Shown here: piece after piece, positions 1-33,439 of the stretch
How the letters are laid out: every line of letters starts with the position of its first letter
Position numbering within the stretch: the first letter of the stretch is position 1
Position numbers and translations under genes: made by a program
DNA from: a virus
Direction: 5' to 3' (one strand)
Length of the DNA: 36,647 nucleotides
IMG/VR virus record: IMGVR_UViG_3300044899_000013
Location: 1 to 36,647 of that record
Notes under the pieces: generated by a model
What the model was told of the DNA's origin: nothing
The model's database searches: none
What the model saw: only the letters and a program-made list of their open reading frames with translations

Positions 1-1
1 C

Positions 2-175
2 GAGAGGATATGGCGCTGGTGGGACGCTGGCTACAAGTTCGACCCACAGCCCCTCACTGTCGTCCGTGTGAACCGCAAGACAGTCACGGTTCGCACCGAT
101 CAGGGCAATGTGTTCCGCATTCCCCCGCAAGAAATTGTCGGGCGATGGGATGAAGACGGGGAGCAGGGGAAATGA
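2..175 (+). CDS. Hypothetical protein, 5'-truncated by the window edge
   Basis: An open frame runs from the window start to a TGA at 173-175 and gives about 57 visible residues, ending in DEDGEQGK. The stop overlaps the ATG of the next gene (ATGA at 172-175), the same junction used throughout this operon, so I read it as the end of a real gene. The visible part alternates short beta-prone stretches (KTVTVRTDQG, NVFRIPPQEIVGRW) and could be a small SH3-like barrel, but I do not recognise a family. The true start is outside the window. Confidence 0.6.
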   Translation, partial: ERIWRWWDAGYKFDPQPLTVVRVNRKTVTVRTDQGNVFRIPPQEIVGRWDEDGEQGK

Positions 176-489
176 GCAGGGCGATCGATTTCGTAGGGAG
201 TGAACTGCGGACCCGAATTGAGGCCGAAGAAGTCCTAGACGGACTATTGGGCAGCGAAGTGGGCAATGGCGCGGGCGCAGGGTTGGCTGCAGACATCGCC
301 CTCGTGGGTCAGCAGCGTGATATCGCACGCATGCGACTCAAGAGTGCCAAAGATGCTGTCAACGCAGTGCTGCAGGTCTGTGACGCAGGCGAGCGTGATG
401 GCGTAACAGCCATCAATATCGGCATCATTAGGGCTGCGTTGGCTGATGAAATGCCAGCGGACGTCAAGGTGGACGGGGACGCGAAGTGA
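172..489 (+). CDS. Hypothetical protein, 105 aa
   Basis: Short soluble protein of 105 residues with no recognised domain. It is alanine-rich and mostly helical in character, with no signal peptide or membrane segment. Its ATG overlaps the stop of the upstream frame and its own TGA overlaps the GTG of the next gene (GTGA at 486-489), so it lies in a translationally coupled chain. Early-region phage and plasmid operons of Actinobacteria often hold such small proteins. No function can be assigned. Confidence 0.7.
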   Translation: MSRAIDFVGSELRTRIEAEEVLDGLLGSEVGNGAGAGLAADIALVGQQRDIARMRLKSAKDAVNAVLQVCDAGERDGVTAINIGIIRAALADEMPADVKVDGDAK

Positions 490-746
490 ATCAGCGTGAG
501 GCGAACTTGCTCTCTCAACGCTTCGGTGAGGTGTGCCGCCCAGCGTCCGATCAAGCCACAGGCTCCGACTGGTCGGATGGGTACGCAGACGGCCTGCAGC
601 ACGCGTTCGGCCACCTCCTTGACTGGTGCGAGGTCAGCGTGGACGGCTTCGACAAGCTCGCGGCCCTGCAGTCTTTCGCCATCGGTGGTGGCCTGGACGT
701 GGGCGCTGTGGGGACCATGCAACTCACCAAGGAGCAGGGAACATGA
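486..746 (+). CDS. Hypothetical protein, 86 aa
   Basis: An 86-residue acidic protein with a GTG start at 486 chosen from the GTGA overlap with the previous stop. It contains aromatic-rich helices (SDWSDGYADGLQHAFGHLLD) and no membrane segment. The TGA overlaps the ATG of the following gene at 743. A second frame (496-777) covers the same DNA but is arginine- and serine-rich and lacks the overlap pattern, so I treat it as a shadow. Function unknown. Confidence 0.65.
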   Translation: MNQREANLLSQRFGEVCRPASDQATGSDWSDGYADGLQHAFGHLLDWCEVSVDGFDKLAALQSFAIGGGLDVGAVGTMQLTKEQGT

Positions 747-934
747 GCACGGTCCACGACGCGCAGGTGCGGGCTGAGACCCTCCGCCAAGCCGTCGCCA
801 TGCTCCGCAAGCAGACGGAGGGGGCCGCGATGGAACGTGACCACCTGAACCCGGGCATCTTGTGGGCGGCGGACTTCCTCGCGGAGTTCGTTGAGCGGGT
901 CCACATGCTCCCAGAGGTCGAGGCCACGTCATGA
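743..934 (+). CDS. Hypothetical protein, 63 aa
   Basis: The frame is open from 626, but the start fitting the operon is the ATG at 743, which overlaps the previous TGA (ATGA at 743-746) and gives 63 residues starting MSTVHDAQVR. The upstream extension is arginine-rich and antisense-like. The product looks helical, with two amphipathic segments (AETLRQAVAMLRKQ and ADFLAEFVERVHML). No family recognised. Its stop overlaps the ATG at 931. Confidence 0.65.
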   Translation: MSTVHDAQVRAETLRQAVAMLRKQTEGAAMERDHLNPGILWAADFLAEFVERVHMLPEVEATS

Positions 935-1203
935 GCGAGCCCACCCGTGTCATGGCGGGGATCACGCACCGACCGTTCCCAGGAAAAGACAACGGCGCGC
1001 CGATCCCCCGCGACGAGTACGCCGCGGGCCTAGTCAAGGAACTCAGCGCCACCGACCGGCAGGGAACCCTCACCATCAAAGAAGCAGACGCCTACGTCAC
1101 AGCCGACCTGCTCGACGAGTTGGCCGCGGTCTACAGGGGTGAGCCCCTCGGATTTTTGGCACGCGAGATGGCAGTCAAGCTCTACGACCGGTTGGGCATC
1201 TGA
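931..1203 (+). CDS. Hypothetical protein, 90 aa
   Basis: A 90-residue soluble protein beginning MSEPTRVMAGITHRPFPGKD, joined by 4-base overlap to its upstream neighbour and by TGATG (1201-1205) to the next. The C-terminal half is helical (DLLDELAAVYRGE, FLAREMAVKLYDRLG). No catalytic motif, signal peptide or membrane helix is visible. A frame at 891-1142 on the same strand is a shadow rich in His, Arg and Pro. Function unknown. Confidence 0.65.
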   Translation: MSEPTRVMAGITHRPFPGKDNGAPIPRDEYAAGLVKELSATDRQGTLTIKEADAYVTADLLDELAAVYRGEPLGFLAREMAVKLYDRLGI

Positions 1204-1451
1204 TGGCACGCAATGCCCGACCCACGCAGCAGGAGCGTGAGACCGTCCAGCTTATCCACTCCACCATCCAGCGCCGTTGCGCCGATACCGAGATGACTGT
1301 CTCCCAGGTCGATCAGGCCTCGATGCTGGCCGCCGCGCTGTACGACACGGCAGGTAGGCACGGAGTGACCAAGAGTCTCGCGGATGGTGTGACGTCGTTC
1401 ATTGACGCGGCGATCGACGGCATACGCGCACGAGACAGGGTGACGTCGTGA
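1203..1451 (+). CDS. Hypothetical protein, 82 aa
   Basis: An 82-residue protein starting MARNARPTQQERETVQLIHS. It is predicted to be largely helical, with a possible DNA-binding or structural role suggested only by its basic ends. Coupled by TGATG to the preceding gene and by GTGA (1448-1451) to the next. I do not recognise it. Confidence 0.65.
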   Translation: MARNARPTQQERETVQLIHSTIQRRCADTEMTVSQVDQASMLAAALYDTAGRHGVTKSLADGVTSFIDAAIDGIRARDRVTS

Positions 1452-1747
1452 GCGGGTTCACTGAGCCGCCGGAGCTGCAGGCCATCGAGGAGGCCGTCGC
1501 TGCGGGCATCTGCGAGGTGTGGGGCTCGACGCGGTTCGCCCAGTCCGTACAGGAGCCCGCGTGGATGGGCGCGGAGCAGGCGTGGCAGCGTGACGCGGAC
1601 GCCGCCCAGGACGCCCTCCTGCGCGTTCAGGGCCTCATCTCCGAACTCATGACGTTGGGCAGTCTCGGTGGGCACGCTCACGAACTCCTGGACGTGGCCG
1701 ACACGCTGGACCTGATCTGTGACGAGCGAAGGATCCGGCCGCTATGA
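1448..1747 (+). CDS. Hypothetical protein, 99 aa
   Basis: A 99-residue acidic helical protein with a GTG start at 1448 picked from the GTGA overlap. There are no cysteine clusters, membrane helices or recognised motifs. Its stop overlaps the start of the membrane protein at 1744. Function unknown. Confidence 0.65.
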   Translation: MSGFTEPPELQAIEEAVAAGICEVWGSTRFAQSVQEPAWMGAEQAWQRDADAAQDALLRVQGLISELMTLGSLGGHAHELLDVADTLDLICDERRIRPL

Positions 1748-1968
1748 GCACCCATGCGGTGAGCGTCCTGGCGCTGGCTGGCGTCTTTGTGCTCTCCGTC
1801 GTCTGCTCGGCGTTGGTGCGTCAGGTCGCCCGTCTGAACCGTCGGGTCCTTGACTTGGAGTACCCGGCGCATAAGTCAGACAGAGAAGATGCGATACGGG
1901 AGGTGCGTCGCTGGGGTGAGGAGGCCCGCAGACAAGACGCTATTAGACGGCGGCAATCCAGCCAGTAA
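1744..1968 (+). CDS. Small bitopic membrane protein with charged tail
   Basis: The 74-residue product has one N-terminal hydrophobic helix (residues about 5-25, SVLALAGVFVLSVVCSALV), then a strongly charged helical tail (REDAIREVRRWGEEARRQDA) that could form a coiled coil. The topology fits a small inner-membrane accessory protein. It sits three bases upstream of the wall hydrolase that opens the secretion-like gene set, so a role in that envelope complex is possible but inferred from position only. Confidence 0.7.
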   Translation: MSTHAVSVLALAGVFVLSVVCSALVRQVARLNRRVLDLEYPAHKSDREDAIREVRRWGEEARRQDAIRRRQSSQ

Positions 1969-1971
1969 AAC

Positions 1972-2997
1972 GTGAGCGCCCCTCCACGACCGCAGCAACG
2001 GCGTGGAAGGGCTAAGGCACAACCTCAGCTAGGAAGGTCAGGCCCTGTGGTTATCGTGGCAGTCGCCGCAACCGTGGTGAAGTCTCGGGGCACCCGGCGT
2101 GCCCTGATCGCCCTCGCCGCGGTCGCCCCCGTCATCATCGCCACCTGGGTCATCGCCGGGCTGCTGCTGGGGCTCCTGTTCCTGGCTGGTCCCCCGCCGG
2201 ACCCCACAGCGACCGCCTTGGGTGGGTGCGGTGTCGCCGCCCCCACAGCGCAGGCCCGGACCTCGTTGGCCCCCGCGCAGCTTGCGAACGCCGCCACGAT
2301 CATCGCTGTGGGTCGCCAGCTCGGGATCCCCGCGTTCGGGCTGCAGGTCGGCATCGCGACTGCGCTTCAGGAATCCAGGCTGCTCAACCTCGCCCACGGC
2401 GATGGCACGAGCGTGGGCCTGTTCCAGCAGATCAACAGCTGGGGGTCGTTCGCGCAGAGGCATGACCCCACCTGGGCTGCCCGCAAGTTCTTCGGCGCGC
2501 TCAAAGGTGTCGCAGGCTGGGCCACGATGCCGCTCACTGTTGCCGCCCAAGCGGTGCAGCGCAGCGCCTTCCCTCAGGCTTACGCGAAATGGACTTCACT
2601 GGCTGCATCCGTGGTCCACCTGCCCGCGTTGGCCGGGTCCACCTGTACCGGCACCGCAGGGTTCCCCGTCGTCGCACGGAATGGTAGCCTCCCCGCCCGC
2701 CAGGCCGCGCTCATCGTGTTCGGGCACCGCCTGCAAGCCCTCGGGTTCACCGTGGGCGAGCACCCGGCCTTCGGCGGAGTTCACCCCGTACACGCCCCGC
2801 ACTCCTTCCACTACATCCCCGGTGGGGGCGCGATCGACGTCAACTACGACGGGCACGCCACCCCCGAGAAGACCAAGCTCGACACGCTCATCCCCCTCGC
2901 CAAAGCCGCAGGGTTCCGGATCATCTGGCAGTTCCCCGGCCATTTCGACCACATGCACATAGACGTCAGCACCGGCCCCGACATGGGCCACTTCTAA
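1972..2997 (+). CDS. Membrane-anchored bifunctional wall hydrolase (transglycosylase-like plus M15-like peptidase)
   Basis: The 341-residue protein has a basic N-terminus, a membrane helix at about 44-72, and two apparent wall-cutting domains. Residues about 100-215 resemble a lysozyme or lytic transglycosylase fold, with ALQESRL (E134 the likely catalytic acid) and SVGLFQQ at 147-153. Residues about 228-341 carry an M15/VanY-like zinc peptidase signature: HSFH (H277, H280), GGAIDV (D289) and HFDHMHID (H324, H327, H329). T4SS and conjugation operons usually encode a wall hydrolase of this kind to open peptidoglycan for the channel (VirB1 or TcpG role). It is distinct from the phage endolysin at 15274 and is co-transcribed with the VirB-like genes. 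GTG start, three bases after the previous stop. Domain assignments are from motifs only. Confidence 0.8.
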   Translation: MSAPPRPQQRRGRAKAQPQLGRSGPVVIVAVAATVVKSRGTRRALIALAAVAPVIIATWVIAGLLLGLLFLAGPPPDPTATALGGCGVAAPTAQARTSLAPAQLANAATIIAVGRQLGIPAFGLQVGIATALQESRLLNLAHGDGTSVGLFQQINSWGSFAQRHDPTWAARKFFGALKGVAGWATMPLTVAAQAVQRSAFPQAYAKWTSLAASVVHLPALAGSTCTGTAGFPVVARNGSLPARQAALIVFGHRLQALGFTVGEHPAFGGVHPVHAPHSFHYIPGGGAIDVNYDGHATPEKTKLDTLIPLAKAAGFRIIWQFPGHFDHMHIDVSTGPDMGHF

Positions 2998-3021
2998 CCC
3001 ACCCAGAAGAGAGGCAAGACC

Positions 3022-3315
3022 ATGCACGCAGTAGCAGCCACAGTCGCGACGTACCTGACTCTGAAAGCGAAGCCCCCTGTGCCCGCTGCGGGGGCGACCA
3101 CCGCGAACCTGCAGACCTGGATCAAGGGGAACGTGATCCCGTTGATGATCCTGATCGTCGCGGTGTCCCTGTTCCTTCTGGCGCGGTCGGGGTCGAACGC
3201 GAAGGCGATGCGGGTTGTTGGTGGGGTCCTGATCGCTGTCGCGGTTCTTGGGCTTGCGGCGACGGGTAAGGCTGACCACTTGGGTACCTGGGCTCTTAGT
3301 TTGATCGGGGTTTGA
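3022..3315 (+). CDS. Small two-helix membrane protein, VirB2/TrbC pilin-like
   Basis: The 97-residue product has two hydrophobic helices (about 38-54 and 64-80) separated by a short polar loop (RSGSNAKAMR). That size and topology match VirB2/TrbC-type pilin subunits. A good ribosome site (AGAGAGG) lies upstream of the ATG. It stands directly before the VirB3-like and VirB4-like genes, the canonical virB2-B3-B4 order. There is no obvious cleavable signal peptide, and sequence similarity to true pilins cannot be judged by eye, so the call rests on size, topology and position. It could instead be another small channel subunit. Confidence 0.55.
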   Translation: MHAVAATVATYLTLKAKPPVPAAGATTANLQTWIKGNVIPLMILIVAVSLFLLARSGSNAKAMRVVGGVLIAVAVLGLAATGKADHLGTWALSLIGV

Positions 3316-3316
3316 C

Positions 3317-3664
3317 GTGCAGTTGCCGGTGGATGACGAGATTTACCGGGTGGACTCGGTGTGGTTGGGTCCGCCGGGGCAGACCCTGCCATGGCGTGCC
3401 CGGTACGCCGCGTACGGGGTGGGCCTGGTGGTGTTCCTGACGTTGGAGGGGGTGGAGCGCAGGCTCGGGGTGGGCTTGGGGTTCTTCACCCTCGCATGGA
3501 CCCTGTTCGGGTCGGTGCTGTTGACGCGGGTGGTGCTCAGCGTGGTGGATCATGACCGGCCCCTACGGAGTGTGGTGGCGGGTTTCTGCCATGAGGTGAG
3601 CGCACCCCGCGAACGGGTCAAGGCGTCCGAGGCCACGCTCATGCCGCCGCGGAGCACGCCGTGA
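3317..3664 (+). CDS. VirB3/PrgI-like membrane protein
   Basis: A 115-residue protein with hydrophobic segments at about 29-43 and 54-76, a soluble N-terminus beginning MQLPVDDEIYRVDSVW, and a polar C-terminus. It ends overlapping the VirB4-like ATPase (3661-3664). In T4SS loci the gene before virB4 encodes VirB3 (PrgI or TcpE type), a small membrane protein that docks the ATPase to the inner-membrane complex. GTG start at 3317, one base after the previous stop. Assignment rests on topology and gene order. Confidence 0.55.
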   Translation: MQLPVDDEIYRVDSVWLGPPGQTLPWRARYAAYGVGLVVFLTLEGVERRLGVGLGFFTLAWTLFGSVLLTRVVLSVVDHDRPLRSVVAGFCHEVSAPRERVKASEATLMPPRSTP

Positions 3665-6165
3665 GCACGTCAGGCCTCGCCCTGCGCAAGGTCTCTGGGC
3701 ACTGCACCATCACCGCTGACCGGGTGACGGCGTGGTACTTGTTGGACGGGCAGGGCTGGTCGTTCCGGCCTGACAGTGTGCGTGAGCAGCTGATCCGTGA
3801 CGGCGCGGACGCCTACGCGCAGTTGGTGGGGCGCGCGGTTCATGTGCGGGTGACGACGCGCCCGTACCCCGTGAGCGACTGGGCCGCCGCGCATGACGCG
3901 AACGCGCCCGCCCCGCTGCCGGGGTGGCGGGACTACCTGCTGCGGGACCAGCGGCATCTCGCCGGCAGGAACATGAGCGACAAGGAGGTCTACGTGGGTG
4001 TGGAGGTTCCCGCCCGGCGCGGCCTGTACCGGGTCCTGGGTGGGTTGATGGGGAGCCTGGGTGACCGCGAGGTGGCGGGATTGGCAGCGCAGATCCGGGA
4101 GACGGACAGCATCATGGGTTCCCCTGGCATGGAGGGGGCACCAGCGAGCCCGCGTCAGGTGGAGTGGTTGCTGCACCGGTCCTGCTCCTTGGGCCTCCCA
4201 GCGCCGTTGACGCTCTCCAACGCTGCCGGCGCGGAGTGGGACACCGAGGACCTCGCGGAGTTCACGGACAGTGTGCGGTGGTTCGCGGAGCCCTACGGGC
4301 GCACCCTGCGGGTGTCCGGGGAAGCCAACGGTGAGTTGGTGGAGCGGCACGTCTGCGTGCTGTCCGTGGGCCGCATGAGTGACCTGGAGATCCCGTCAGG
4401 TACGCCGTGGATGCAGCGCACCGACGCGCTCAGCTTCCCGGTCGAGTGGTCTGGGCGGGTCCTCGTCGAGGACGGGGCACGGGTCGGTGGTGCGATGCGG
4501 AAGGCGATACAGAAGATCCGCGCCCAGAAGGAGCACTACGAGGTGGAGCACACTGAGCCTGCACCGGGCGCCCTGGACCGGCAGGCGCGGCGGGCGTTGG
4601 CTGTGGAGGATGACCTGAGCGCGGGCCTGAGCGGGCTGAGCACGCGCACATCCGGGCATTACAGGCTCGCCGTCAGTGGGGCGAGCCAGGAGGAGGCGTT
4701 GGAGCGGGCGGGCCAGGTCCGCAAACTGTTCGCGCCCACCATCAGCATCTCGCGGCCGGTGGATCAGTACGCGGTGGCCCGCGAGTTCGTTCCCGGTGAG
4801 CCGTTGGGCAGCGTGGCGTACAAGCGGCGAATGCCCGTCACCACGTTGGCCGCCGCCGTCCCAGCAGCCACAGCGAAGGTCGGTGACCGGCGCGGCATCC
4901 ACCTCGGAGAGACCTCGGGGACGTCGCAGCGGGTCGTGACGTGGGAGCCGTGGGAGGCCACGGAGCGCAAGGAGGAGAGCGGCCTGGGCGTGGTCGTGGC
5001 GGGCCTTGGTGGGGGAAAGTCCACCGCGGGCGGCAACATCATCTACCGCTCACTGATGCAGGGCGTGCCGTGGACGGTGCTCGACCCGTCGGGGCGCCTG
5101 ACCGCGCTCTCCCGGCTGCCCGAGCTCGAAGGGTGCGCGCAGGCAGTGGACCTGTTGGAGGCCCAGCCGGGGTGCCTGAACACGTACAGGGTCATCGCCG
5201 AGCCCAGACCCGAGCACTACGGCACGGAGCCAGAGTGGCGCACCGCGGTCGAGCAGGCCCAAGCGACCCGCCGGATGCTCACCAGCAGCGTGCTCCGGTC
5301 CATGCTCCCTGCCGGGTTGCAGGACCACGTCTTGACCGAGGTCGCGTTGTTGCGGGCGGTTGGCGCGGTCCAAGCCGCACACACGTCCGCGCCGGGGTAC
5401 GTCGTGGACGCGTTGAAAGCCATGACGGGTGACCCCGAACTGGTGCGGCACGCCGGCTACCTAGCGGACTTCTTCGGTGAGGCCGCGAAGACGAGCCACG
5501 GCAGGCTGATCTTCCCCAGCGGGTACTACCTCGACAAGGGGCATGACGCGCCTCTGCTGACGGTCTACTCGCTGCGGGGGTTGGCCCTGCCCGATGACGG
5601 GTCGAGCGGCACCGATGACCTGGACGAGCGGCTCAGCATGTGTGTCCTCTTCTTGGCCGCCTGGTTGACGCAGCGGTCCATGTACGCGGGTGACGTGCAC
5701 CAGCGCAAAGGCATCTTCCTTGATGAGGCGTGGGCGTTGGGGACGTTCTCGGCGGGCCGCAGGTTCATTGACCGGGCGAGCCGGGACAGCCGGAAGCACA
5801 ACACGCGGGTCCTCTTGGCGTCCCAGAACCCGTCCGATCTGCTCCGGTTGGACCTGGGCAACCTCGTCAGCGCCGCGTTCATCGGCAGGCTCACGGATGA
5901 GGCTGCGCAGCGGGACGCGCTCAAGCTGTTGCCGGGGATCAGTGAGGGCGTCGGGTATGAGCCCATTTTCGGCACCCTGAGCGCGCCGACCCGTGAGGGC
6001 AGGCGTGGGGCGCGGGAGTTCGTGTTCAGTGACGGCGCGTCGATTGAGCGGATCCGGATGGATATGGGCGCGCACCCGCACCTTCTGGACGCGCTCAGCA
6101 CGACCGCGGACCCGGAGAAGGCCCGGGACCGGGTCGCCCACCTCGCAGCGGTGGTGGTCGCATGA
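3661..6165 (+). CDS. VirB4-type conjugation ATPase
   Basis: The 834-residue protein is the energising ATPase of the T4SS-like locus. Its N-terminal part (about 1-430) resembles the long N-terminal domain of actinobacterial VirB4/TraC-like proteins. The C-terminal RecA-like domain has a Walker A loop GLGGGKST (G448-T455), a Walker B IFLDEAW (D688, E689) and the late VirB4 motif LLASQNPSDL (Q722). VirB4 family members bind the inner-membrane face and power assembly or substrate transfer. Length is normal for the family (about 800). It is preceded by VirB2- and VirB3-like genes with a 4-base overlap and followed by the VirB6-like gene after two small ORFs. No frameshift is visible. The family call is solid; the exact subtype is inferred. 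Confidence 0.88.
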   Translation: MSTSGLALRKVSGHCTITADRVTAWYLLDGQGWSFRPDSVREQLIRDGADAYAQLVGRAVHVRVTTRPYPVSDWAAAHDANAPAPLPGWRDYLLRDQRHLAGRNMSDKEVYVGVEVPARRGLYRVLGGLMGSLGDREVAGLAAQIRETDSIMGSPGMEGAPASPRQVEWLLHRSCSLGLPAPLTLSNAAGAEWDTEDLAEFTDSVRWFAEPYGRTLRVSGEANGELVERHVCVLSVGRMSDLEIPSGTPWMQRTDALSFPVEWSGRVLVEDGARVGGAMRKAIQKIRAQKEHYEVEHTEPAPGALDRQARRALAVEDDLSAGLSGLSTRTSGHYRLAVSGASQEEALERAGQVRKLFAPTISISRPVDQYAVAREFVPGEPLGSVAYKRRMPVTTLAAAVPAATAKVGDRRGIHLGETSGTSQRVVTWEPWEATERKEESGLGVVVAGLGGGKSTAGGNIIYRSLMQGVPWTVLDPSGRLTALSRLPELEGCAQAVDLLEAQPGCLNTYRVIAEPRPEHYGTEPEWRTAVEQAQATRRMLTSSVLRSMLPAGLQDHVLTEVALLRAVGAVQAAHTSAPGYVVDALKAMTGDPELVRHAGYLADFFGEAAKTSHGRLIFPSGYYLDKGHDAPLLTVYSLRGLALPDDGSSGTDDLDERLSMCVLFLAAWLTQRSMYAGDVHQRKGIFLDEAWALGTFSAGRRFIDRASRDSRKHNTRVLLASQNPSDLLRLDLGNLVSAAFIGRLTDEAAQRDALKLLPGISEGVGYEPIFGTLSAPTREGRRGAREFVFSDGASIERIRMDMGAHPHLLDALSTTADPEKARDRVAHLAAVVVA

Positions 6166-6188
6166 AGAGCACCGAACGAGGGAGCACC

Positions 6189-6590
6189 ATGAATCAATCG
6201 CTAGAGGACTGGGATCGAGAGCAGCGGAACCGAGACGCCAGGCGAGAGAAAGCGGAAGGCCCATACAAAAAGTGGGCAGGCTACCTGCATCTCGCTAACT
6301 GGGGGCACGGACTGCCTGTTTTTGAGCGGCTGCGGGACGCTGACCGGGCCATCCGTGAACAGCGCCACGCAAACAACGTCCGAGGCGGGGACTACGAAGG
6401 ACTCACGTTAGCTGTCCGTGTTTGTGCTGCCACCTTCGCTGACCAGATAGCAGCGGCTGCGCCTGACCCTAGCGATCCAACTCTGCTGTGGGTGCTCGCG
6501 GGACTGCGTTGCACGTTGCGGCCGTTCTGTACGGGCTGCACTGCCTGCCAGAGCATCACGTCACCACTGCGTCCATCAGGTGCCCCCTGA
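6189..6590 (+). CDS. Hypothetical protein, about 133 aa
   Basis: I place the start at the ATG at 6189 because a GAGGGAG ribosome site lies just upstream. An in-frame ATG at 6162 would give nine more residues and an ATGA overlap with the ATPase gene, and is an equal alternative. The product is charged and helical at its N-terminus (MNQSLEDWDREQRNRDARRE), then more hydrophobic. The cysteine-rich tail (LRPFCTGCTACQS) could be a metal site or a poorly conserved end. No family recognised. Its stop joins the next gene by TGATG at 6588-6592. Confidence 0.55.
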   Translation: MNQSLEDWDREQRNRDARREKAEGPYKKWAGYLHLANWGHGLPVFERLRDADRAIREQRHANNVRGGDYEGLTLAVRVCAATFADQIAAAAPDPSDPTLLWVLAGLRCTLRPFCTGCTACQSITSPLRPSGAP

Positions 6591-6829
6591 TGGAGGGCCA
6601 GTACCGGATCGACTCCGTGTGGGCGTTCACCCAGATCGACACTGACGGCACCGAGGGCATCATCGCCATGACGATCCCCGGGCTCGGTTTCACCCCGCTG
6701 CTCGGCGCTGACCTGGCCCGCATCGCGTCGTTGCGGCCCTACGCGCAGAAGATTGCGACCGCCACCGGGCGGCCCGTGGTCCTGTCCCACTACTCCGTGC
6801 GCACCGACCAAGAGACGATCCAGCCATGA
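6590..6829 (+). CDS. Small phage-type accessory protein, 79 aa
   Basis: The frame is open from 6488, but the ATG at 6590 overlaps the previous stop (TGATG) and starts MEGQYRIDSVWAF, which fits the operon pattern. The sequence (DGTEGIIAM, PLLGADLARIASLRPYAQKI, GRPVVLSHYSVR) looks like small proteins often seen in early regions of actinobacterial phages and plasmids; this comparison is from memory. The function of that group is unknown. Its TGA overlaps the start of the VirB6-like gene. Confidence 0.65.
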   Translation: MEGQYRIDSVWAFTQIDTDGTEGIIAMTIPGLGFTPLLGADLARIASLRPYAQKIATATGRPVVLSHYSVRTDQETIQP

Positions 6830-8535
6830 GGTTGCGCCGGGTTGTGGCGGTGGTCGTGGTCACGGTCGCGCTCATGGGCACCCTCGCAGGCAGCGCGCAG
6901 GCCCTGCCCGGTGTCCCCGACTGCCGCGACGCACCCGTAGCCGCGATGCCCGGGGACGGCGTCACCGGGTTCTTCGACGGCAAACCCGCCAAGATCCCGC
7001 CCGCGGGTGACCCGTTCGCAGCCAAACCCACCACATCCGTGTACGAGCAATACGGCTACGCGGGTTTGACGTGGCACACCTACGACCTTGGGACCGCGCC
7101 CGTGTGTGTGGACGTAGCCACCACCACCGACACGATGCTGGGGAACTGGGCCATGGGGTTGGCCACCGTCGCAGTCTCAGCGGCGAACGGGTTGCACAAC
7201 AAGATCGCCCACCCCGCCACCTACATGGCGCCCCTGGACTCGGTGGTGGCGCGGGTCAGCGCCCAGATCAAGGCCGCCGTGTGGGACCCGTGGGGCGCCA
7301 TAGCCCTGCTCGCCCTCGCGGGTCTGCTGCTGTGGCGTTCCGCATCGGGCCGGCTCGCCTCGGTGGCGAAGGGCGCGGGGTGGGCTGTGGTCGTGGTCGC
7401 CGTCATGGCCGGCCTCGCCGCCGAACCCGTGAAGGCCGCGGGGTTCTTCGACGACACGGTGACGGGGGCGATAGCGCAGGTGGATGCGGCGTCAGCGGGC
7501 CTGGTCGGGACTCTGCCGGGGTCTGACCCTGCCACCGCGCAAGGCGCCCTCGTGGTGGATCGGGTCCTGTACGACTCCTGGCTGCGGGGGATGTTCGGGA
7601 CCTCCACGTCCGCCACCGCGCGCACGTTCGGGCCCCGCCTGTTCCGGGCCCAAGCGTTCACCTGGGCTGAGGCCGCGCAGCCCCCCGACAAGATTAAAGC
7701 CCTCGCGGACCAGAAGGCCACCGCGTGGAAGACCGCAGCGGACGAGCTCGCCACCAAAGACCCCGCCGCGTACCTCGCGGTGCAAGGCAAGACGGACGCC
7801 CGGAAGGGGGTGGGGGCGATGGCCGCGTTCGGGGTCGCGTTCACCAACCTGTTCAGGGTGTTGGCGGACTTCTTCGTGTTCGCCGGGCTGGTGATGCTCC
7901 GGTTCCTGGTGATGTTCGCGCCCGCTGTTGCGGTGCTCGCGGTGTTCGGGCGGGGCTCGAGCGTGGTCAAGCGGGTGCTGAACTTGGGCGCGTCGAGCGT
8001 GGTCAACGTGGTCGCGTTCTCGGCTGGGTCAGCGGTGCAGACCACCGTCGTCGCCGCGTTGCTCGGAGGCACCCGGGGCGGGGGGTTGGACGCGGTCACG
8101 CTGGTGTTGTGCGCCGTCGCCACCGTGGTCGCCCTCGTGGTGTTGTGGCCCATGCTGTCCCTGACGAGGATCGTGGGCGTGCACAAAGCCGGCGGCGGGG
8201 TGCTCCGCAAAGCTGTCAGGTTGGCGGGGAAGGCCGCCGGTGCCGCTGTTGGGGGCGCAGCGAGTGGCGCTGTGGCAGCCGAGATCCTCGAAGACGACGA
8301 CGATGACGAGAAGGGCGCGGCGGGCAAGGGGCTTGTCGCGGAAAGTTTCAGCAGAGAGGACCAGACCATGAACGAACCGCATGTGCCGCGCGCTGTTGGT
8401 GTCGCAGGCCAGGACCCGCCACGTCGCCCCCGTGAGCCTGACGCTGGGGGTCGTGAGCCTGAGCGGTGGGTGTTCGACCCCGCCACGGGGAAGACGGTCC
8501 TGAGCGAGCCTGAGCCTGAGCCGGTGGACGCATGA
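6826..8535 (+). CDS. VirB6/TrbL-like polytopic membrane protein with signal peptide
   Basis: The 569-residue protein begins with a signal peptide (about 1-26, ending GSAQA). A secreted segment with C33 and C94 follows, possibly disulphide-linked. Hydrophobic helices lie at about 155-171, 186-200, 330-376 (probably two), 390-413 and 420-447. The tail is cytoplasmic-looking: alanine/glycine-rich, then acidic (EDDDDDE at about 489-495), then proline-rich. This resembles the large VirB6/TrbL-like channel proteins of actinobacterial and Gram-positive conjugation loci. It follows VirB4 and precedes the VirB8-like gene, supporting a pore role in the inner membrane. Long antisense frames overlap this gene but are GC-driven shadows. 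Confidence 0.72.
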   Translation: MRLRRVVAVVVVTVALMGTLAGSAQALPGVPDCRDAPVAAMPGDGVTGFFDGKPAKIPPAGDPFAAKPTTSVYEQYGYAGLTWHTYDLGTAPVCVDVATTTDTMLGNWAMGLATVAVSAANGLHNKIAHPATYMAPLDSVVARVSAQIKAAVWDPWGAIALLALAGLLLWRSASGRLASVAKGAGWAVVVVAVMAGLAAEPVKAAGFFDDTVTGAIAQVDAASAGLVGTLPGSDPATAQGALVVDRVLYDSWLRGMFGTSTSATARTFGPRLFRAQAFTWAEAAQPPDKIKALADQKATAWKTAADELATKDPAAYLAVQGKTDARKGVGAMAAFGVAFTNLFRVLADFFVFAGLVMLRFLVMFAPAVAVLAVFGRGSSVVKRVLNLGASSVVNVVAFSAGSAVQTTVVAALLGGTRGGGLDAVTLVLCAVATVVALVVLWPMLSLTRIVGVHKAGGGVLRKAVRLAGKAAGAAVGGAASGAVAAEILEDDDDDEKGAAGKGLVAESFSREDQTMNEPHVPRAVGVAGQDPPRRPREPDAGGREPERWVFDPATGKTVLSEPEPEPVDA

Positions 8536-8882
8536 GTGACAGTGAAGATGTCCGCCACGCTGCCGCAAAATTGCGGACTCTGGCGGAGGCCGCGACACCG
8601 GGGCCGTGGGCCCGCGACTACCACTACATCACCGCAGAGGTGCCCAGTGGGCGCCCTGGTGGTGAGGTGATCGGGCAGATGACTCCTTCAGTCGTCCGCC
8701 TCGGCACCCCCGATAAAGCCAACGCAGCCTATGTCGCCACCATGCATCCCGGTATGGCCCTCGCGGTGGCCGACTGGCTGGATGATGAGGCTGTCGGTGC
8801 GCAGACCGAGACGGGCGAGCCCACTGCGCACTCTCTAATCATCGCCCGCGTCATCAACGCCGCGGCGGAGGTGGCCCCGTGA
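8532..8882 (+). CDS. Phage-type accessory protein (Ea22-like motif)
   Basis: The 116-residue protein contains LRTLAEAATPGPW near its N-terminus and AAYVATMHPGMALAVADWLD further on. From memory this layout is typical of the Ea22-like or related phage early proteins, whose function is not established. It lies inside the T4SS-like operon, tied by ATGA to the VirB6-like gene and by GTGA to the VirB8-like gene. A phage-derived gene is thus physically integrated in the transfer operon. Confidence 0.7.
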   Translation: MSDSEDVRHAAAKLRTLAEAATPGPWARDYHYITAEVPSGRPGGEVIGQMTPSVVRLGTPDKANAAYVATMHPGMALAVADWLDDEAVGAQTETGEPTAHSLIIARVINAAAEVAP

Positions 8883-9436
8883 ACGTGCTCCGGTGGCCGC
8901 TCTGGTCCTGGCGGAACCTCGCCGCAGCCCTCGCCGTGGTCGTCGTGGCCCTGTTCGTGGTCGGTCACCTGAGCGCGCCCGCCACAGCGGACCCCACCCC
9001 TGTTGCCGCCCCCACAACAGCGCCCGTGGCCGAGGACCCCGTGCCCACGTACACGCCCGGGCCACCCACCACGCCCGCCCCCCAGCCCACGAAGGACGTG
9101 CGGTTGGACATGATCGCCACCGTCCAAGGCTTCATGGGGGCGTGGGCGCGCCCACAGTTGGCCCAGAGTGAGTGGCTCGCGGGGGTCACGCCGTGGGTCA
9201 CCCCCGCCATGGCGAAGAGCTTGGCGACTACGGACCCCGCCCGGGTCCCCGCCACCAAGATCCTGGGTGAGCCGGTGCTGCGCCAGTACGACCAGGACGG
9301 GTGGCGGTGGGCGTTCGTCGACGTGAACACGGACGGCGGCAAACTCGTGGTGTCCCTGAGCTCGGTGACCCTTGAGCCGCAGATACGCCGCTGGACCGTC
9401 ACAGACATCAGCCCAGCGGGAGAGGGTGCACCGTGA
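8879..9436 (+). CDS. VirB8/TcpC-like bitopic membrane protein
   Basis: The 185-residue protein has a short cytoplasmic end, one membrane helix at about 13-30 (LAAALAVVVVALFVVGHL), a proline/threonine-rich linker (about 33-72), and a soluble extracytoplasmic domain (about 75-185). That domain includes TVQGFMGAWARPQ and a beta-rich C-terminal half. This architecture (one helix plus an NTF2-like domain) is that of VirB8, TrbF and TcpC, which bridge inner-membrane and outer parts of T4SS machines. GTG start by GTGA overlap. The fold cannot be proved by eye; topology and position are the evidence. Confidence 0.6.
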   Translation: MNVLRWPLWSWRNLAAALAVVVVALFVVGHLSAPATADPTPVAAPTTAPVAEDPVPTYTPGPPTTPAPQPTKDVRLDMIATVQGFMGAWARPQLAQSEWLAGVTPWVTPAMAKSLATTDPARVPATKILGEPVLRQYDQDGWRWAFVDVNTDGGKLVVSLSSVTLEPQIRRWTVTDISPAGEGAP

Positions 9437-9621
9437 GTGACCTGACCGAGTTCTTGCTGGCGCGCATCGCTGAGAAGGAATCTGGCATAACCACTGCCCG
9501 CGCCAAGGCCGAGTGCGCTGACCTGCGACGGATGGTCGCCCTGCAGGAGATCGAAATACTGCGCGTCCTTGCGCTGCCCTTCTACTGCCACCCCGAATGC
9601 AGGCGGGAGTGGCTGGCATGA
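9433..9621 (+). CDS. DUF6221-like small protein
   Basis: The 62-residue product begins MSDLTEFLLARIAEKE and ends ILRVLALPFYCHPECRREW. From memory, the DUF6221 family of actinobacterial and phage proteins has the same two ends (an N-terminal FL.AR..E and a C-terminal LR.LALPY..HP..R.EW) with a longer middle. This copy would then be a shortened member. Function unknown. It is coupled by GTGA to the VirB8-like gene and by ATGA (9618-9621) to the FtsK-like translocase. Confidence 0.68.
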   Translation: MSDLTEFLLARIAEKESGITTARAKAECADLRRMVALQEIEILRVLALPFYCHPECRREWLA

Positions 9622-11180
9622 CCCTGGACACGGTGCAGGGGGTCGCTGTGAGGGCCACCAAGGCAGCCCCGCGGGTGGGTTGGGCACTGGTGCGGGACGC
9701 CGCCCGTCAGGCCCGCAAGCACCCGCGGTGGGCCATCGTGTGGGCCACCGTGGTCGCCCTCGCCGTCTACTACCAGCACAACCTCCTCGCCCTGGAAGTG
9801 TTCGCCGGGGTCGCCGTCCCCGCCCTGCTCGTGGCCGTCGTGTCCCGGTGCTGGCCCAACCTCTGGCGCCGCAGGGTCGCCGCACCAAGGGAACGCAACG
9901 TTTGGGTCCGGTGGGCGCGGTCGAACTGGCCCAGGTTGAGTGAGGAATGCGGGCTCACCGGGACACGCCCGGTGATGCAGAAGACCCAGAACGCCAAGGG
10001 GAAGTGGGTCATGCGGTCAGTGCAGGCCATCACCCGCCCCGAACTCGTCGACGTCAGTTTCAAGGGCAGCACGCTCACCATGGTCATCCGGATCAGGTTC
10101 GGGCAGACCGTCGATGACTTGAGCGCGGCTGGGGAGGCGATCTGCGCCGCCATGGGCGGGGTGTCCTACCGGGTCACCAGGGGCCAACCAGGGGTCCTCA
10201 CGTTGCACGTCCTCACCGTCGACCACCTCGCCGCCCCCCGGCTCGCCACGATGCCGTCAGGTGCCGTCCCCAAAGTCCCCGGCGCGGTGACGATTGGCCG
10301 CAACGAGGACAACACCCCGTGTGTGCTGCAGATCTCCGGAAGGCATTCGTTGGTGGTCGGTTGCAGCGGCGCCGGCAAAGGTAGCGTGTTCTGGGGTGTC
10401 ATGGGCGGGCTCGCCCCCTCCATCCGCGCAGGCCTCGTCGAGGCGCAGGCGTTGGACATGAAGCTCGGGGTCGAGGTCACCATGGGCCGGGAACTGTTCA
10501 CGGCGATCGCGTCCGAGCGGGACGAAGCTCTGGTGTTACTGACCCGGCTCAGGGACCGCATGAACGTCCGTGGGCGGGCCATGGCTGGGGTGTCACGCGC
10601 CCACACACCCACCAAATCCGAGCCACTCGTCTGTCTGCTCATTGACGAATTGGCCGACCTACTTGCCTACTCCGACCCCGCCACCAAGAAGACCGCTACC
10701 GGGCTCTTGTCCGAGATCCTCACCAAAGGCCGCGCACTCGGATTCTCGGTGGTCGCCTGCATGCAAGATCCCCGCAAAGAAGTGATCCCCTCAAGAGGAT
10801 TGTTCACCCAAATCCTCGCCTTGCGACTCCGGTCCCCAGAGGAGGTCACGATGACCCTCGGTGCCGGCATGGCGGCCAAAGCCCCCGCCCACCACATCTC
10901 CCCCGCCACCCCCGGCGTCGGGTACGTCGTCGCCGACGACGGGCAGGCGATGCGGATCCGCCCGGACTACTGGACCGACGACATGGTCCGCGCTGTGGCC
11001 GCCCGGTACGCGACACCGCTGCCGAGCGACATGGTGCGGGTCCCCGCCGCTGGACGCAGGCGCAGGGGCACCGCGGAGGTCAACGCCGAGAACGAGGCGC
11101 AGGCCGCAGCTGACCGCGCCGCGTTGGCTGACATCGAAGCCCAGATCCGCGACGACGGATACGGGGACCTCACCGGGTAA
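9618..11180 (+). CDS. FtsK/SpoIIIE-family DNA translocase (TraB/coupling-protein-like)
   Basis: I choose the ATG at 9618 (ATGA overlap) over the longer frame from 9597, giving 520 residues. The N-terminus has a hydrophobic stretch at about 33-72 (one or two membrane helices). A linker domain follows, then an FtsK/SpoIIIE motor with Walker A GCSGAGKG (G248-G255, K254) and Walker B VCLLIDELADL. Downstream, KGRALGFSVVACMQDPRKE matches the sensor region of the family. Such motors in actinobacterial elements pump DNA: TraB moves double-stranded DNA between mycelia, and others act as T4SS coupling proteins. It is the last gene of the operon and the best candidate for feeding DNA to the channel. It lacks a clear C-terminal gamma-type DNA-reading domain; the tail is short, charged and alanine-rich. 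Confidence 0.85.
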   Translation: MTLDTVQGVAVRATKAAPRVGWALVRDAARQARKHPRWAIVWATVVALAVYYQHNLLALEVFAGVAVPALLVAVVSRCWPNLWRRRVAAPRERNVWVRWARSNWPRLSEECGLTGTRPVMQKTQNAKGKWVMRSVQAITRPELVDVSFKGSTLTMVIRIRFGQTVDDLSAAGEAICAAMGGVSYRVTRGQPGVLTLHVLTVDHLAAPRLATMPSGAVPKVPGAVTIGRNEDNTPCVLQISGRHSLVVGCSGAGKGSVFWGVMGGLAPSIRAGLVEAQALDMKLGVEVTMGRELFTAIASERDEALVLLTRLRDRMNVRGRAMAGVSRAHTPTKSEPLVCLLIDELADLLAYSDPATKKTATGLLSEILTKGRALGFSVVACMQDPRKEVIPSRGLFTQILALRLRSPEEVTMTLGAGMAAKAPAHHISPATPGVGYVVADDGQAMRIRPDYWTDDMVRAVAARYATPLPSDMVRVPAAGRRRRGTAEVNAENEAQAAADRAALADIEAQIRDDGYGDLTG

Positions 11181-11428
11181 CCAGCGGGCCAGGACCGCCC
11201 GGGATGGCCGCTCAGGCGACACGCCGTACGGCCTGCAAACACCTAGAAAACGCTTGCATAGGGGGGTACGCTCAGCCGACGAGCAGTGAGGAACGAGCCG
11301 CACAGGACAGCGGAGCGTTTTTCCTGTATCAAGGTTTGTTCGGGGTGATTGCAAGGCAGTAAGAGCGGGACGCAGGAGAGCGGGCCAACACCGTAAGGGT
11401 GCTGGCCCGCAGTCATGCCAGGGTCTTC
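11181..11428. other. Intergenic region between convergent operons
   Basis: The 248 bases separate the ends of the plus-strand transfer operon and the minus-strand helicase operon. No credible coding frame was found. The segment holds a strong hairpin (11380-11410, listed separately), a loose inverted repeat ACAGGA/TCCTGT at about 11302-11328, and a run of six G at about 11261-11266. No tRNA fold or att-like repeat was recognised. Confidence 0.6.
11380..11410 (-). terminator. Hairpin terminator between convergent operons
   Basis: Arms 11380-11392 and 11398-11410 pair over 13 positions around a 5-base loop. The single mismatch on the plus strand (A11388 against C11402) becomes a U-G wobble in the minus-strand transcript. 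The fold is therefore perfect for the operon ending at 11429, and it can also act on the incoming plus operon. No U-tract follows, as is common in high-GC Actinobacteria. Confidence 0.65.
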
Positions 11429-12079
11429 CTAGTTCTCGGTTTGCCGTGTTGCTGTTCGGCGGTCGAGTTCGTCGTGCAGCGCCTGGACGACTTTGGCAAG
11501 CTCCTGATCGGGAAGCCTCACTGTTGACCGTGCGAGCCGCTCCCACTTCGGCAGGCGTTCACTCTCAAAGTGCGCGGACTGGCCGCTCCTTGTCACTTGG
11601 CGCACGCGGGTACCTAACGCTGGACGCTCACGAAGGGAAAGTCGCTCGGCGAGCGACTTTCCCGCTAGAACCTTAGCCTCACGCTTGGTGTACCCGAATG
11701 GCTCGATCGGGCGGCCAGGACGAGAAGGGACCTCACGGCGGACATCAGCCAGACGACGCCGATAACCCTCTTCGCCAGTGCGCCGCTCATCCATCGCATC
11801 CGCGAGCTTCGCCTTCACCTCGATGTCGCGGATCCCGTGCAGGATCTGGTCACGGTCGATACCTTGCTGCGTCAGGAAGTAGTCGAACTCACCCGGCATG
11901 AACCGGTAGGTCCCAAGGCCGTCACGGAATTCCCGCCAGTCGCCGGCGTCGAGCATCGCGATCAGCAGATCAGCCATCTTGGCCAGTCCAAGGTTGGTCA
12001 TCTGGAGGCTGAACTGGTGCACACGCCGCCCGTGCGGATCGAGGAAGTCCTCTTCCTTGGTCACTCGGGAGCCAGCCAT
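11429..12079 (-). CDS. Unknown protein downstream of the HNH-helicase, 216 aa
   Basis: The 216-residue soluble protein starts 19 bases inside the end of the helicase gene, so the two are co-transcribed and probably coupled. It is rich in charged residues and mostly helical, with a basic C-terminal half (GYTKREAKVLAGKSLAERLS, LPKWERLARSTVRLPDQELA). No membrane helix, catalytic motif or known domain is recognised. A strict partnership with the helicase (nuclease regulation, DNA binding or a defence accessory) is possible from position alone. Confidence 0.72.
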   Translation of the reverse strand: MAGSRVTKEEDFLDPHGRRVHQFSLQMTNLGLAKMADLLIAMLDAGDWREFRDGLGTYRFMPGEFDYFLTQQGIDRDQILHGIRDIEVKAKLADAMDERRTGEEGYRRRLADVRREVPSRPGRPIEPFGYTKREAKVLAGKSLAERLSLRERPALGTRVRQVTRSGQSAHFESERLPKWERLARSTVRLPDQELAKVVQALHDELDRRTATRQTEN

Positions 12080-14079
12080 GACGGTGTCCCCTCTTCAGAG
12101 CGTTCACAGTGCTCGTACACGCGGGTAGTCATCCACGCGATCGAGGCCGCCAACTGGTCATGGGTTGCGTCCTCACGTTTGTCGTACCCTCCCGCCTCAT
12201 TGGCCCGGTACTGGAACTCAGCGATGTTGTTCCAGCGCAGGTCATGGACAACATGGTGGTGCATCCAGTTGCTGATCTTCTGGAGTTGGGCACGCAGCTG
12301 CTTGTTGATCGTCCGCGGATCGGCCTGCGTGACCGTGACGTCATCAACCTCAGGCGTCGAGTACAGCCGAGGAAACCGCCGAACCCGACGCGCAGCCAAC
12401 GCCACCCGAGGACCGTACGTCGCTGGCACACCAAGCGCCTCGAACTCACGCTCCCATTCAGCCAGTTCCACTGCTGGAATATCGCCGTCGGTCTCACCCA
12501 CAACGGTCGCGTTCTGAAACACCGGGTTGGACAGGTCCAGCAGGCGGAACCGCAGTTCGCTGCCATTCCCACCACCGCCACTCCCTCGTTCATCTGCGTC
12601 CTCAAGCTGCTTCAACTCTTGAACGACATGCTGGGTTGGCAGCATGGCCGCCGCAAACGCCTCCCTCAACTCCTGGTGGTCAGGGATGAGGAACTGTGCG
12701 GGCAGGATCATCCTGCGCGCACGCTCTGTCTTGGTTATCCGCATCGCGCGGGCCATCATCTGGGCGACAGACAACGGCGCCACGATGTTGGAGGCGTACG
12801 CGATAGTCGAGACCTCCGGGCAGTCGAACCCCTCAGTCACCATCTTCACTGCCACGATCGCGCACGACCTTCGTTCCTGCCTTGCCTGGCGCAACGTCCG
12901 TAGTACGCCCGGTTCATCGTTGACAACGAGGTGTGCAAAGTCGTCGCCGACGAGTTGGTTGATGGCGTCAGCTGCGCGGCGGGCTGCCTTTACGTTGGCC
13001 GCGATGTAGAGCATCTTGAGCGGCTCCTCAGGACCGATGGCGTCCTGTTGGTTCATCAGCATCCGCACCGCCTCTTTCGCGAATCCGTCGACCCACGCGC
13101 GGGACTCGAACGAATCACGGATAGCGGCTTTGCGCAGAGTAGGACTGAGATCGGCCAGTGCGCCGCTGGTTACCTCCTGCGTGCGCAGGTCAAGGACTTC
13201 CGCGCGGCCGGTGTAGACGTATGAGTCTGGTGGACGCAACTGTTTGCCCACCAGATCGGCGGTTGAGATCGAGTAATCGGCTTGGGCGTGCCACGCTGCG
13301 TCATCACCGACCTCGACGTGTTCGTATCTGACTGTGCTGATCCTGTCCGTCCCATTCGATCGGAACAGGGTTCCTGTCAGGTTCAGCACGCCCGCGCATT
13401 TGATTCCGCCGAGCTGGCCGACCATGACTTTCGCCGCGTTCCCCCACGCCTTGGTATCCGCGACGTGATGAACCTCGTCCAAGACGACCAGGGTCGGATG
13501 AGCCTGCTGGCGGGTGACGTGACCACTCGCAGATCCGGGCAGCGACTGGTATGTCACAACCGCTCCGACTGTCCCTGGGAGCTCAATGAATCCGTTGCGC
13601 GGCTCAGAGTCGAGGTGGATGCCGAGGGCACTCATCGTGCGGACCCACTGCTCGACCAACGCCTTGTTGGGAACGACGACGACGAGTCGCTCAGCGAATC
13701 CGGCAGCGGCTAGGCGCTGGAACACTGTGCCGGCGAAGATCGTCTTACCCGCGCCGGGTGCGGCATTCAGTGTCGCGACGCCCTGCTGGAAGATTTTGTC
13801 GAGGATGGTTGGCAACGCTGCGGCCTGCCACTCCCTTAGTTGGACAGTCGCACGGTCACTAACGTCCTCGGCGCCAACGGACCAGTTGCACGGCGCGCAC
13901 CACGCTTCCATGTTCTCCAGGGTGGTCGCACCGCCTCCTGACCACGGCATGAGGTGCGCCTGTTGCCAAGTGGAGTCAAGTTCGACGTCGCAGCGTTGGC
14001 ACTTGCCATCGGCCCGGGTGAACAGCGTGACGAGTTCGTCTTGGGACAGTCCGCGGCGGCGGTCCCTCCCGTAGTTCAT
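12061..14079 (-). CDS. HNH-DEAD/DEAH (superfamily 2) helicase fusion
   Basis: The start at 14079 overlaps the upstream stop (ATGA on the minus strand) and gives 672 residues. N-terminal HNH-like module: C27, C30, H42, N56, C61, C64. A superfamily 2 helicase core follows: motif I AAPGAGKT (106-113), motif II DEVHH (201-205), motif III LTGT (234-237), then VTEGFDCPEVS and QMMARAMRITK as motifs V and VI. A C-terminal domain of about 200 residues has WMHHHVVHDLRWNNIAEFQY and no family I recognise. Similar HNH-helicase fusions occur in actinobacterial genomes and phages; roles from restriction-like defence to replication or repair are possible. The residue before the HNH histidine is alanine (QQAHLMPW), where Asp or His is usual, so nuclease activity may be weakened. 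Confidence 0.82.
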   Translation of the reverse strand: MNYGRDRRRGLSQDELVTLFTRADGKCQRCDVELDSTWQQAHLMPWSGGGATTLENMEAWCAPCNWSVGAEDVSDRATVQLREWQAAALPTILDKIFQQGVATLNAAPGAGKTIFAGTVFQRLAAAGFAERLVVVVPNKALVEQWVRTMSALGIHLDSEPRNGFIELPGTVGAVVTYQSLPGSASGHVTRQQAHPTLVVLDEVHHVADTKAWGNAAKVMVGQLGGIKCAGVLNLTGTLFRSNGTDRISTVRYEHVEVGDDAAWHAQADYSISTADLVGKQLRPPDSYVYTGRAEVLDLRTQEVTSGALADLSPTLRKAAIRDSFESRAWVDGFAKEAVRMLMNQQDAIGPEEPLKMLYIAANVKAARRAADAINQLVGDDFAHLVVNDEPGVLRTLRQARQERRSCAIVAVKMVTEGFDCPEVSTIAYASNIVAPLSVAQMMARAMRITKTERARRMILPAQFLIPDHQELREAFAAAMLPTQHVVQELKQLEDADERGSGGGGNGSELRFRLLDLSNPVFQNATVVGETDGDIPAVELAEWEREFEALGVPATYGPRVALAARRVRRFPRLYSTPEVDDVTVTQADPRTINKQLRAQLQKISNWMHHHVVHDLRWNNIAEFQYRANEAGGYDKREDATHDQLAASIAWMTTRVYEHCERSEEGTPSWLAPE

Positions 14080-18837: not shown

Positions 18838-18875
18838 GGTCAGGCTCCTTGATGGTGGTGCGGGTTGGGCAGGGA

Positions 18876-21323: not shown

Positions 21324-21763
21324 GCGAGCTCGACGATGATGGTCCCGACCGGCGTACCAGCAGGAGCCGCGGCGCCATGAGCAACCACGAGGCTGTCGTT
21401 CATGGTGACGCCGTTGCGGACCAGTGCCGCGGCGGTGCCCTGCTTCCCAGTGAACCGGGTATCAAGAGTGCTGGCCTGAGCCGTCGAGGGTAGCCGGGCA
21501 TCGTCGAGGGTCCCGGTAGTCAGGGCGGACGCATCGAAGGGCGCACCGCCGGTGCCGGTGCCGATAGGGGCGCCATTGACGGTCGGTGCGGACGTGAAGT
21601 TCTTCACCCCGTTCACCGTCTGGGCGCCCGTCAGCAGAACAGCCCCCAACTCCAGGGCCGCGATCTTCGCCGCGGCCTGGTTGATCGCGTCGTCTCTAAG
21701 GTTCTCGTCCTCTATCCACCCTGCGTCGCCATCAACATGCGTCCCAGTCAGGCCACCGGCCAC
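21320..21763 (-). CDS. Small tail-fibre-type protein, 147 aa
   Basis: GTG start at 21763 with an AAGGAG ribosome site five bases before it. The product has a short helical N-terminus (DENLRDDAINQAAAKIAALE) and a repetitive Gly/Thr/Ala-rich remainder (GAQTVNGVKNFTSAPTVNGA), the style of phage fibre shafts. It ends with the strand-rich TPVGTIIVELA. It is coupled to the GH16 gene by ATGA and probably forms part of the fibre or a fibre-attachment piece. No enzymatic motif. Confidence 0.68.
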   Translation of the reverse strand: MAGGLTGTHVDGDAGWIEDENLRDDAINQAAAKIAALELGAVLLTGAQTVNGVKNFTSAPTVNGAPIGTGTGGAPFDASALTTGTLDDARLPSTAQASTLDTRFTGKQGTAAALVRNGVTMNDSLVVAHGAAAPAGTPVGTIIVELA

Positions 21764-21838
21764 GAGATCTCCTTAATTAGTGCGTTGTGCGAAGCGCCTA
21801 CTGGCTCGGTTGGTGTTGCACCCTCTGGCAGTGCCGGA

Positions 21839-23431: not shown

Positions 23432-23613
23432 CGGCGGGGACCAAGGACGAGCCTGGTTCCGTTGGACAACGCGATGGTTACCACTTCGGCGCCCGGGGTC
23501 GGTGACCACATCGCGCCGTCAATCGTCACCGCGTCAGCCACGACACCAGCCACCGACACCACGAGGTCCGTCATCTCGGTGGGGACGGACACCACCACGC
23601 CGTCGTCAGGCAC
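23428..23613 (-). CDS. Small tail-region protein, 61 aa
   Basis: I start at the GTG at 23613 (V/M-PDDGVVVSVPTEMTDLV), three bases downstream of the previous stop and preceded by AAGGTGG. The open frame to 23670 would overlap the upstream gene and begins with unlikely sequence. The 61-residue product is beta-rich and ends ALSNGTRLVLGPRR. It lies between hub and fibre genes. Similar short proteins occur in actinophage tail modules; function unknown. Confidence 0.65.
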   Translation of the reverse strand: MPDDGVVVSVPTEMTDLVVSVAGVVADAVTIDGAMWSPTPGAEVVTIALSNGTRLVLGPRR

Positions 23614-33397: not shown

Positions 33398-33432
33398 GAC
33401 GTTAGGGGCGCCGTGTTGACGCCCCTAACGTC
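33398..33432 (-). terminator. Strong hairpin directly after the major capsid gene
   Basis: Arms 33398-33410 and 33420-33432 pair perfectly over 13 bp with a 9-base loop, starting eight bases past the capsid stop codon. No U-tract follows. It probably stabilises the capsid message or ends most transcripts so that capsid protein is made in excess over later gene products. Confidence 0.75.
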
Positions 33433-33439
33433 ATGCGAC

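Follow-up and report, generated by a model that had tools for sequence, protein, structure and literature searches.

The window analysed here comprises an entire IMG/VR contig (IMGVR_UViG_3300044899_000013, 36,647 bases) from a tailed phage (Caudoviricetes), and it quite probably carries a conjugation module that was captured by a phage lineage, that later received small-gene insertions in the window's own line and that probably serves to spread the prophage from cell to cell. One conserved conjugation module is found in two metagenomic phages with different capsids, the window and a second genome designated G001. The phage-borne module is the interesting part of the window, the small genes threaded through it appearing to be ordinary phage mosaicism, and the prediction of a phage that is also able to conjugate is directly testable.

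The plus strand of the window (1-11,180) bears small early genes followed by the transfer operon, and on the minus strand a tailed-phage structural block takes up the contig from roughly 12 kb to its end. The assignment to the tailed phages is based on the capsid, minor head and lysis genes and on the tape measure position: Pfam recognised an SU10_MCP major capsid protein (4.5e-76; 54% identical to the capsid of Mycobacterium phage Bernal13), a VG15 minor head protein and an Amidase_2 amidase, and an open reading frame of 1,301 amino acids occupies the position of the tape measure gene. The transfer operon and the four small genes within it, which are named below by their start coordinates, are as follows.

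1972-2997 (+), lysozyme/peptidase, a VirB1-like cell-wall hydrolase with PHROG lysozyme/endolysin domains; the true start may be the GTG at 2047
3022-3315 (+), small membrane protein, VirB2-like by position only, with homologues in G001 and chromosomal copies at the same place
3317-3664 (+), membrane protein immediately preceding VirB4, called VirB3/PrgI-like from its position only
3661-6165 (+), VirB4-like ATPase (Pfam AAA_10, PF12846, 2e-18) with homologues in plasmids and chromosomal elements
6162-6590 (+), small inserted gene with its start at 6162 or 6189, absent from all other operon copies
6590-6829 (+), small inserted gene, probably a mobile phage cassette, 77% identical in protein to positions 3156-3395 of the phage contig L036
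6826-8535 (+), VirB6-like polytopic membrane protein, so named from its position and its homology to the corresponding gene of other copies
8532-8882 (+), small inserted gene, weakly Ea22-like, absent from other operon copies
8879-9436 (+), VirB8-like protein with one membrane helix and an NTF2-like domain, matched by a hidden Markov model of the other copies (2.8e-42)
9433-9621 (+), small inserted gene, a short DUF6221 protein, absent from other operon copies
9618-11180 (+), FtsK/TraB-type DNA pump, 55% identical to that of G001 and 46-49% identical to FtsK genes like those of actinomycete integrative and conjugative elements (AICEs)

The VirB4 search retrieved one phage relative, G001, which was again the sole phage relative with a four-sequence profile, together with 128 plasmid records (Streptomyces, Rhodococcus and others), chromosomal elements of Intrasporangiaceae and Streptomyces contigs. 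The VirB4 and FtsK searches met no such module in some 50,000 deposited phage records; the left 14 kb of the window gave no near-identity match in phages or plasmids, and no paper describing a VirB-type operon in a tailed phage was found in the open-access literature. The VirB4-like ATPase is 81% identical to that of G001 and 39-78% identical to those of the nearer plasmid and chromosomal copies, its matches to the NCBIfam TcpF/VirB4 models falling below cut-off. The VirB3/PrgI-like protein (61% to G001, 32-67% to others) always precedes VirB4; the VirB6-like protein, which had no Pfam or NCBIfam match, is 54% identical to that of G001 and up to 59% identical to the chromosomal ones, and the hydrolase is 54% identical to that of G001 and 38-51% identical to those of most plasmid and chromosomal copies. 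When the AlphaFold model of the VirB8-like protein was aligned with VIA-align, it matched TraM of pIP501 (Z 10.6), the conjugation protein 3ub1 (Z 10.1) and VirB8 (Z 9.6). Plain Foldseek gave nothing significant for this protein, only NTF2-like folds with OrfG of ICESt3 at rank 32, and because NTF2 folds are common the structural match counts together with the operon position. The 46-49% identical relatives of the FtsK pump sit in elements with the order GntR, FtsK, Rep-like, Xis and Int, which is the AICE plan, these neighbouring genes being named by their sequence starts and layout rather than by a family search; in viral contigs beyond G001, FtsK had three distant matches, with no VirB genes in view.

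The second phage locates the module firmly within phage genomes. G001 comes from a different metagenome, and its 41,183 bases end in a 127-base direct terminal repeat, so that it is circular in assembly. It encodes an SPP1 portal, VG15, a Phage_capsid-type capsid that gave no match to the window capsid, two tyrosine integrases, lysis genes and a weakly matched terminase-like gene. In its module the hydrolase gene is followed by those for two small membrane proteins and then by VirB4, VirB6 and FtsK. Among the copies examined, only the window and G001 have the hydrolase upstream of the VirB genes and FtsK immediately after them. The two phages are sisters in the VirB4 tree (99/100) and in the VirB6 tree (100/100), inside the chromosomal copies of Intrasporangiaceae. 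The module is held by purifying selection between them, the ratios of nonsynonymous to synonymous substitution rates (dN/dS) being 0.20 for VirB4, 0.29 for the VirB3-like gene, 0.37 for FtsK and 0.39 for VirB6, values that are rough because synonymous sites are fairly divergent. Since a circular phage genome with a different capsid contains the same rearranged operon, the module belongs to phage genomes and is no assembly error, as the initial annotation had proposed. The simplest history is that the module was captured and rearranged once and was then exchanged between phages whose capsids are unrelated. The two G001 integrases (1285-2046 and 33421-34236) flank the transfer module and could be the boundaries of a mobile block.

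The small genes have a different distribution. The initial annotation had asked whether they always occupy the same places wherever the operon occurs, and had considered that they might instead turn up in plasmid operons; none of the four has a homologue in any other operon copy examined, and the plasmids with the operon lack them too. Of the 29 copies elsewhere in which VirB4 is intact (the second phage, plasmids and chromosomal elements), none has more than 1 base between the stop of VirB4 and the first possible start of VirB6, VirB6 coming directly after VirB4 in copies outside the window, and VirB6 and VirB8 abut in all 24 copies with VirB8. The small-gene insertions are therefore specific to the window's line. 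One chromosomal copy (L088, G160:C1:2961078-2963566) was left out of the VirB4-VirB6 count, as its VirB4 is broken by a stop codon; it is a decaying element.

How such insertions could yield tight junctions is suggested by the 6590 gene. Its homologue in L036, an unrelated phage contig, adjoins an integrase-like gene; no transfer genes are visible around it, and the record has no FtsK match. The DNA similarity between the two copies extends from position 6591, the second base of the start codon, to 6829, the stop, with 76% identity, and both flanks drop to 29-33%, which is background. The L036 copy overlaps each of its neighbours by 4 bases, and the gene is under selection (dN/dS 0.37 between the two copies). 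Both copies share the end CAGCCATGA; the final bases of the cassette are CCATGA, and the ATG of its own terminal ATGA is the start of the next gene. The start codon of the following gene therefore lies inside the cassette, and a tight overlap made by the insertion itself needs no long shared history. We infer that recombination joined the parts at the ATG of the cassette end. Single-gene insertions near gene boundaries by illegitimate recombination have been described in mycobacteriophages (PMC3029335).

The other small genes differ from the transfer genes in composition. The G+C content at third codon positions (GC3) takes the values 0.63, 0.74 and 0.78 among 6162, 8532 and 9433, with 0.63 in 6162, and so resembles that of the early small genes of the window, versus 0.82-0.89 for most transfer genes (3022, at 0.76, is the exception). 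Codon use did not separate the transfer from the structural genes of the window, and only the GC3 of these three small genes deviated. As to the families named in the initial annotation, DUF6221 stands for 9433 (Pfam PF19730, E 2.6e-9, above cut-off), and Ea22 for 8532 is only weak, with Pfam Ead_Ea22 below cut-off (13.6 of 27 bits) and PHROG 5585 at 2.7e-4. DUF6221 is scattered in Intrasporangiaceae (12 of 184 genomes). No homologue was found for 6162; 8532 and 9433 had no tblastn match in phages or plasmids, 8532 had none in viral contigs, and 6590 had no family match in the correct frame. The proteins of 6590 and of the VirB3/PrgI-like gene 3317-3664 have alike N-terminal motifs (YRIDSVW and YRVDSVW), a likeness that is probably due to chance.

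Homology and the trees show that a phage lineage took a Gram-positive-type conjugation module, comprising a cell-wall hydrolase, two small membrane proteins, VirB4, VirB6, VirB8 and an FtsK pump, from integrative conjugative elements (ICEs) of actinobacteria resembling the Intrasporangiaceae. A single rearrangement, shown by the arrangement that only the two phages share, relocated the hydrolase upstream and joined an AICE-type FtsK downstream. Later, in the window's line, small phage genes were inserted between the transfer genes, as their absence from all other copies shows. Insertion at gene ends, with a cassette whose CCATGA supplies the ATG of the next gene, could instantly create a 4-base overlap and coupled translation. 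The module would then most likely pass the prophage, or its circular form, between cells as double-stranded DNA through the FtsK pump and the VirB channel, in addition to infection by virions. AICEs move double-stranded DNA by means of one such FtsK-type protein (PMC3218068), and the best-supported reading, to judge from the families to which the proteins belong, is that a lysogen passes the double-stranded DNA of its own phage to a neighbouring cell. More tentatively, and with somewhat less than an even chance of being right, the two genomes may represent an actinobacterial tailed-phage lineage that spreads both as virions and by conjugation with its own VirB channel and double-strand pump, the operon moving between phages with unrelated capsids.

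Several known systems resemble parts of this arrangement. Those ICE-like chromosomal elements of Intrasporangiaceae and linear plasmids of Streptomyces (e.g. pRVR2) that bear a type IV secretion system also have VirB2/3-like, VirB4, VirB6, VirB8 and hydrolase genes in one operon, but no small genes lie between them, the hydrolase is downstream of VirB8, FtsK is elsewhere and no phage structural genes were recognised alongside the operon. AICEs such as pSAM2 share the pump; in these elements, which also carry Rep, Xis and Int, the pump works by itself, whereas the phage pump is joined to VirB genes. Phage-plasmids likewise combine a phage genome with plasmid-type functions, among which conjugation has been listed (PMC11652158), but in G001, which has two tyrosine integrases, Pfam recognised no plasmid replication or partition genes (the window being incomplete). 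The single-gene insertions of actinophages (morons, mosaic modules and gene 68 of Island3) are also gene-sized and located at gene boundaries (PMC3029335), and differ in that the insertion target in the window is a conjugation operon.

Some observations weigh against a captured transfer module with late insertions. Close homologues were not found for 6162, 8532 and 9433, so that, of the four small genes, a single one is shown to have moved as a gene-sized unit, and that one, 6590, has a GC3 of 0.91 and does not look foreign. Only two module-bearing phages were found, and G001 may have lost the small genes, although such a loss would leave unexplained why the chromosomal and plasmid copies lack them too. 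A profile search showed that VirB8 is missing in G001, and DNA transfer by the module is deduced from family membership. Pfam recognised no relaxase among 37 G001 proteins or in the scanned part of the incomplete window, and no replication gene among the same 37 proteins, no RepSA model having been used. The missing VirB8 and the lack of a recognised relaxase speak for other uses, in which the type IV secretion module of these phages would move no DNA and would act, for example, on the cell wall, in phage exclusion or in protein secretion. Such a role is a reasonable but unlikely alternative, given that a DNA pump of the type used in AICE conjugation is present and conserved in both phage modules.

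A further possibility is that the small genes are working parts of the transfer system, for instance regulators or anti-host factors needed during transfer. They lie inside the operon, where they would be translated along with it, and the selection on 6590 and its L036 homologue noted above would suit such a role. However, G001 and 28 other copies manage without the small genes and the L036 homologue adjoins an integrase gene away from any visible transfer genes, which makes this explanation rather improbable.

It is very unlikely that the small genes are original to the phage transfer operon, coevolved with it and were lost in G001. The initial annotation argued in this direction from the junctions, holding that overlaps of four bases with the neighbouring transfer genes need shared evolution. 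Most of the junctions are as described: 6590 overlaps the VirB6-like gene by 4 bases (ATGA), 8532 overlaps the VirB6-like (ATGA) and VirB8-like (GTGA) genes, and 9433 overlaps the VirB8-like (GTGA) and FtsK-like (ATGA) genes in the same manner. The overlap of 6590 with its upstream neighbour is of 1 base (TGATG), and the junction between VirB4 and the first small gene is ambiguous, a start at 6162 giving a 4-base overlap and a start at 6189 lying 23 bases past the VirB4 stop, behind a good Shine-Dalgarno sequence (GAGGGAG). The tightness of the junctions throughout, and the rearranged operon that both phages share, speak for an original set. Nevertheless, chromosomal and plasmid copies that fall outside the phage pair in the trees all lack the small genes, 6590 is tightly overlapped in L036 as well, and tight overlaps are general. 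Overlaps of 4 bases occur in 12 of 17 neighbouring plus-strand pairs between 172 and 11180 (a hand-chosen set), in 19 of 41 same-strand pairs of the whole window and in 22 of 54 in G001, the gene caller slightly favouring overlapping starts. ATGA and GTGA overlaps of 4 bases are the default spacing in both genomes, so that those of the small genes are no evidence of shared evolution and, more generally, tight gene overlaps are poor evidence for a long shared history.

Lastly, the window could be a chimera assembled from a phage contig and a contig of a plasmid or ICE. Such a join would fit the transfer and structural halves, which lie on opposite strands and adjoin at 11180-12061, the lack of VirB4 in the records (mostly fragments) of the closest relatives of the structural genes, and the incomplete contig, in which the portal is cut at the end and a terminase is lacking, but it is very improbable because G001, from another metagenome, has the same module with the phage-specific gene order inside a circular phage genome.

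Two features of the phage half may be mentioned. A single protein (12061-14079, minus strand), encoded in the stretch that separates the transfer operon from the lysis genes, combines an N-terminal HNH endonuclease domain with a ResIII/DEAD helicase domain, and is possibly a defence or DNA-processing enzyme. The tail-region proteins at 16846-23509 (minus strand) contain a glycerophosphodiester phosphodiesterase domain (GDPD, 1.5e-21), a weak match to glycosyl hydrolase 16 and a glycine-rich ALK/LTK-type domain, and they may degrade cell-wall polymers at adsorption.

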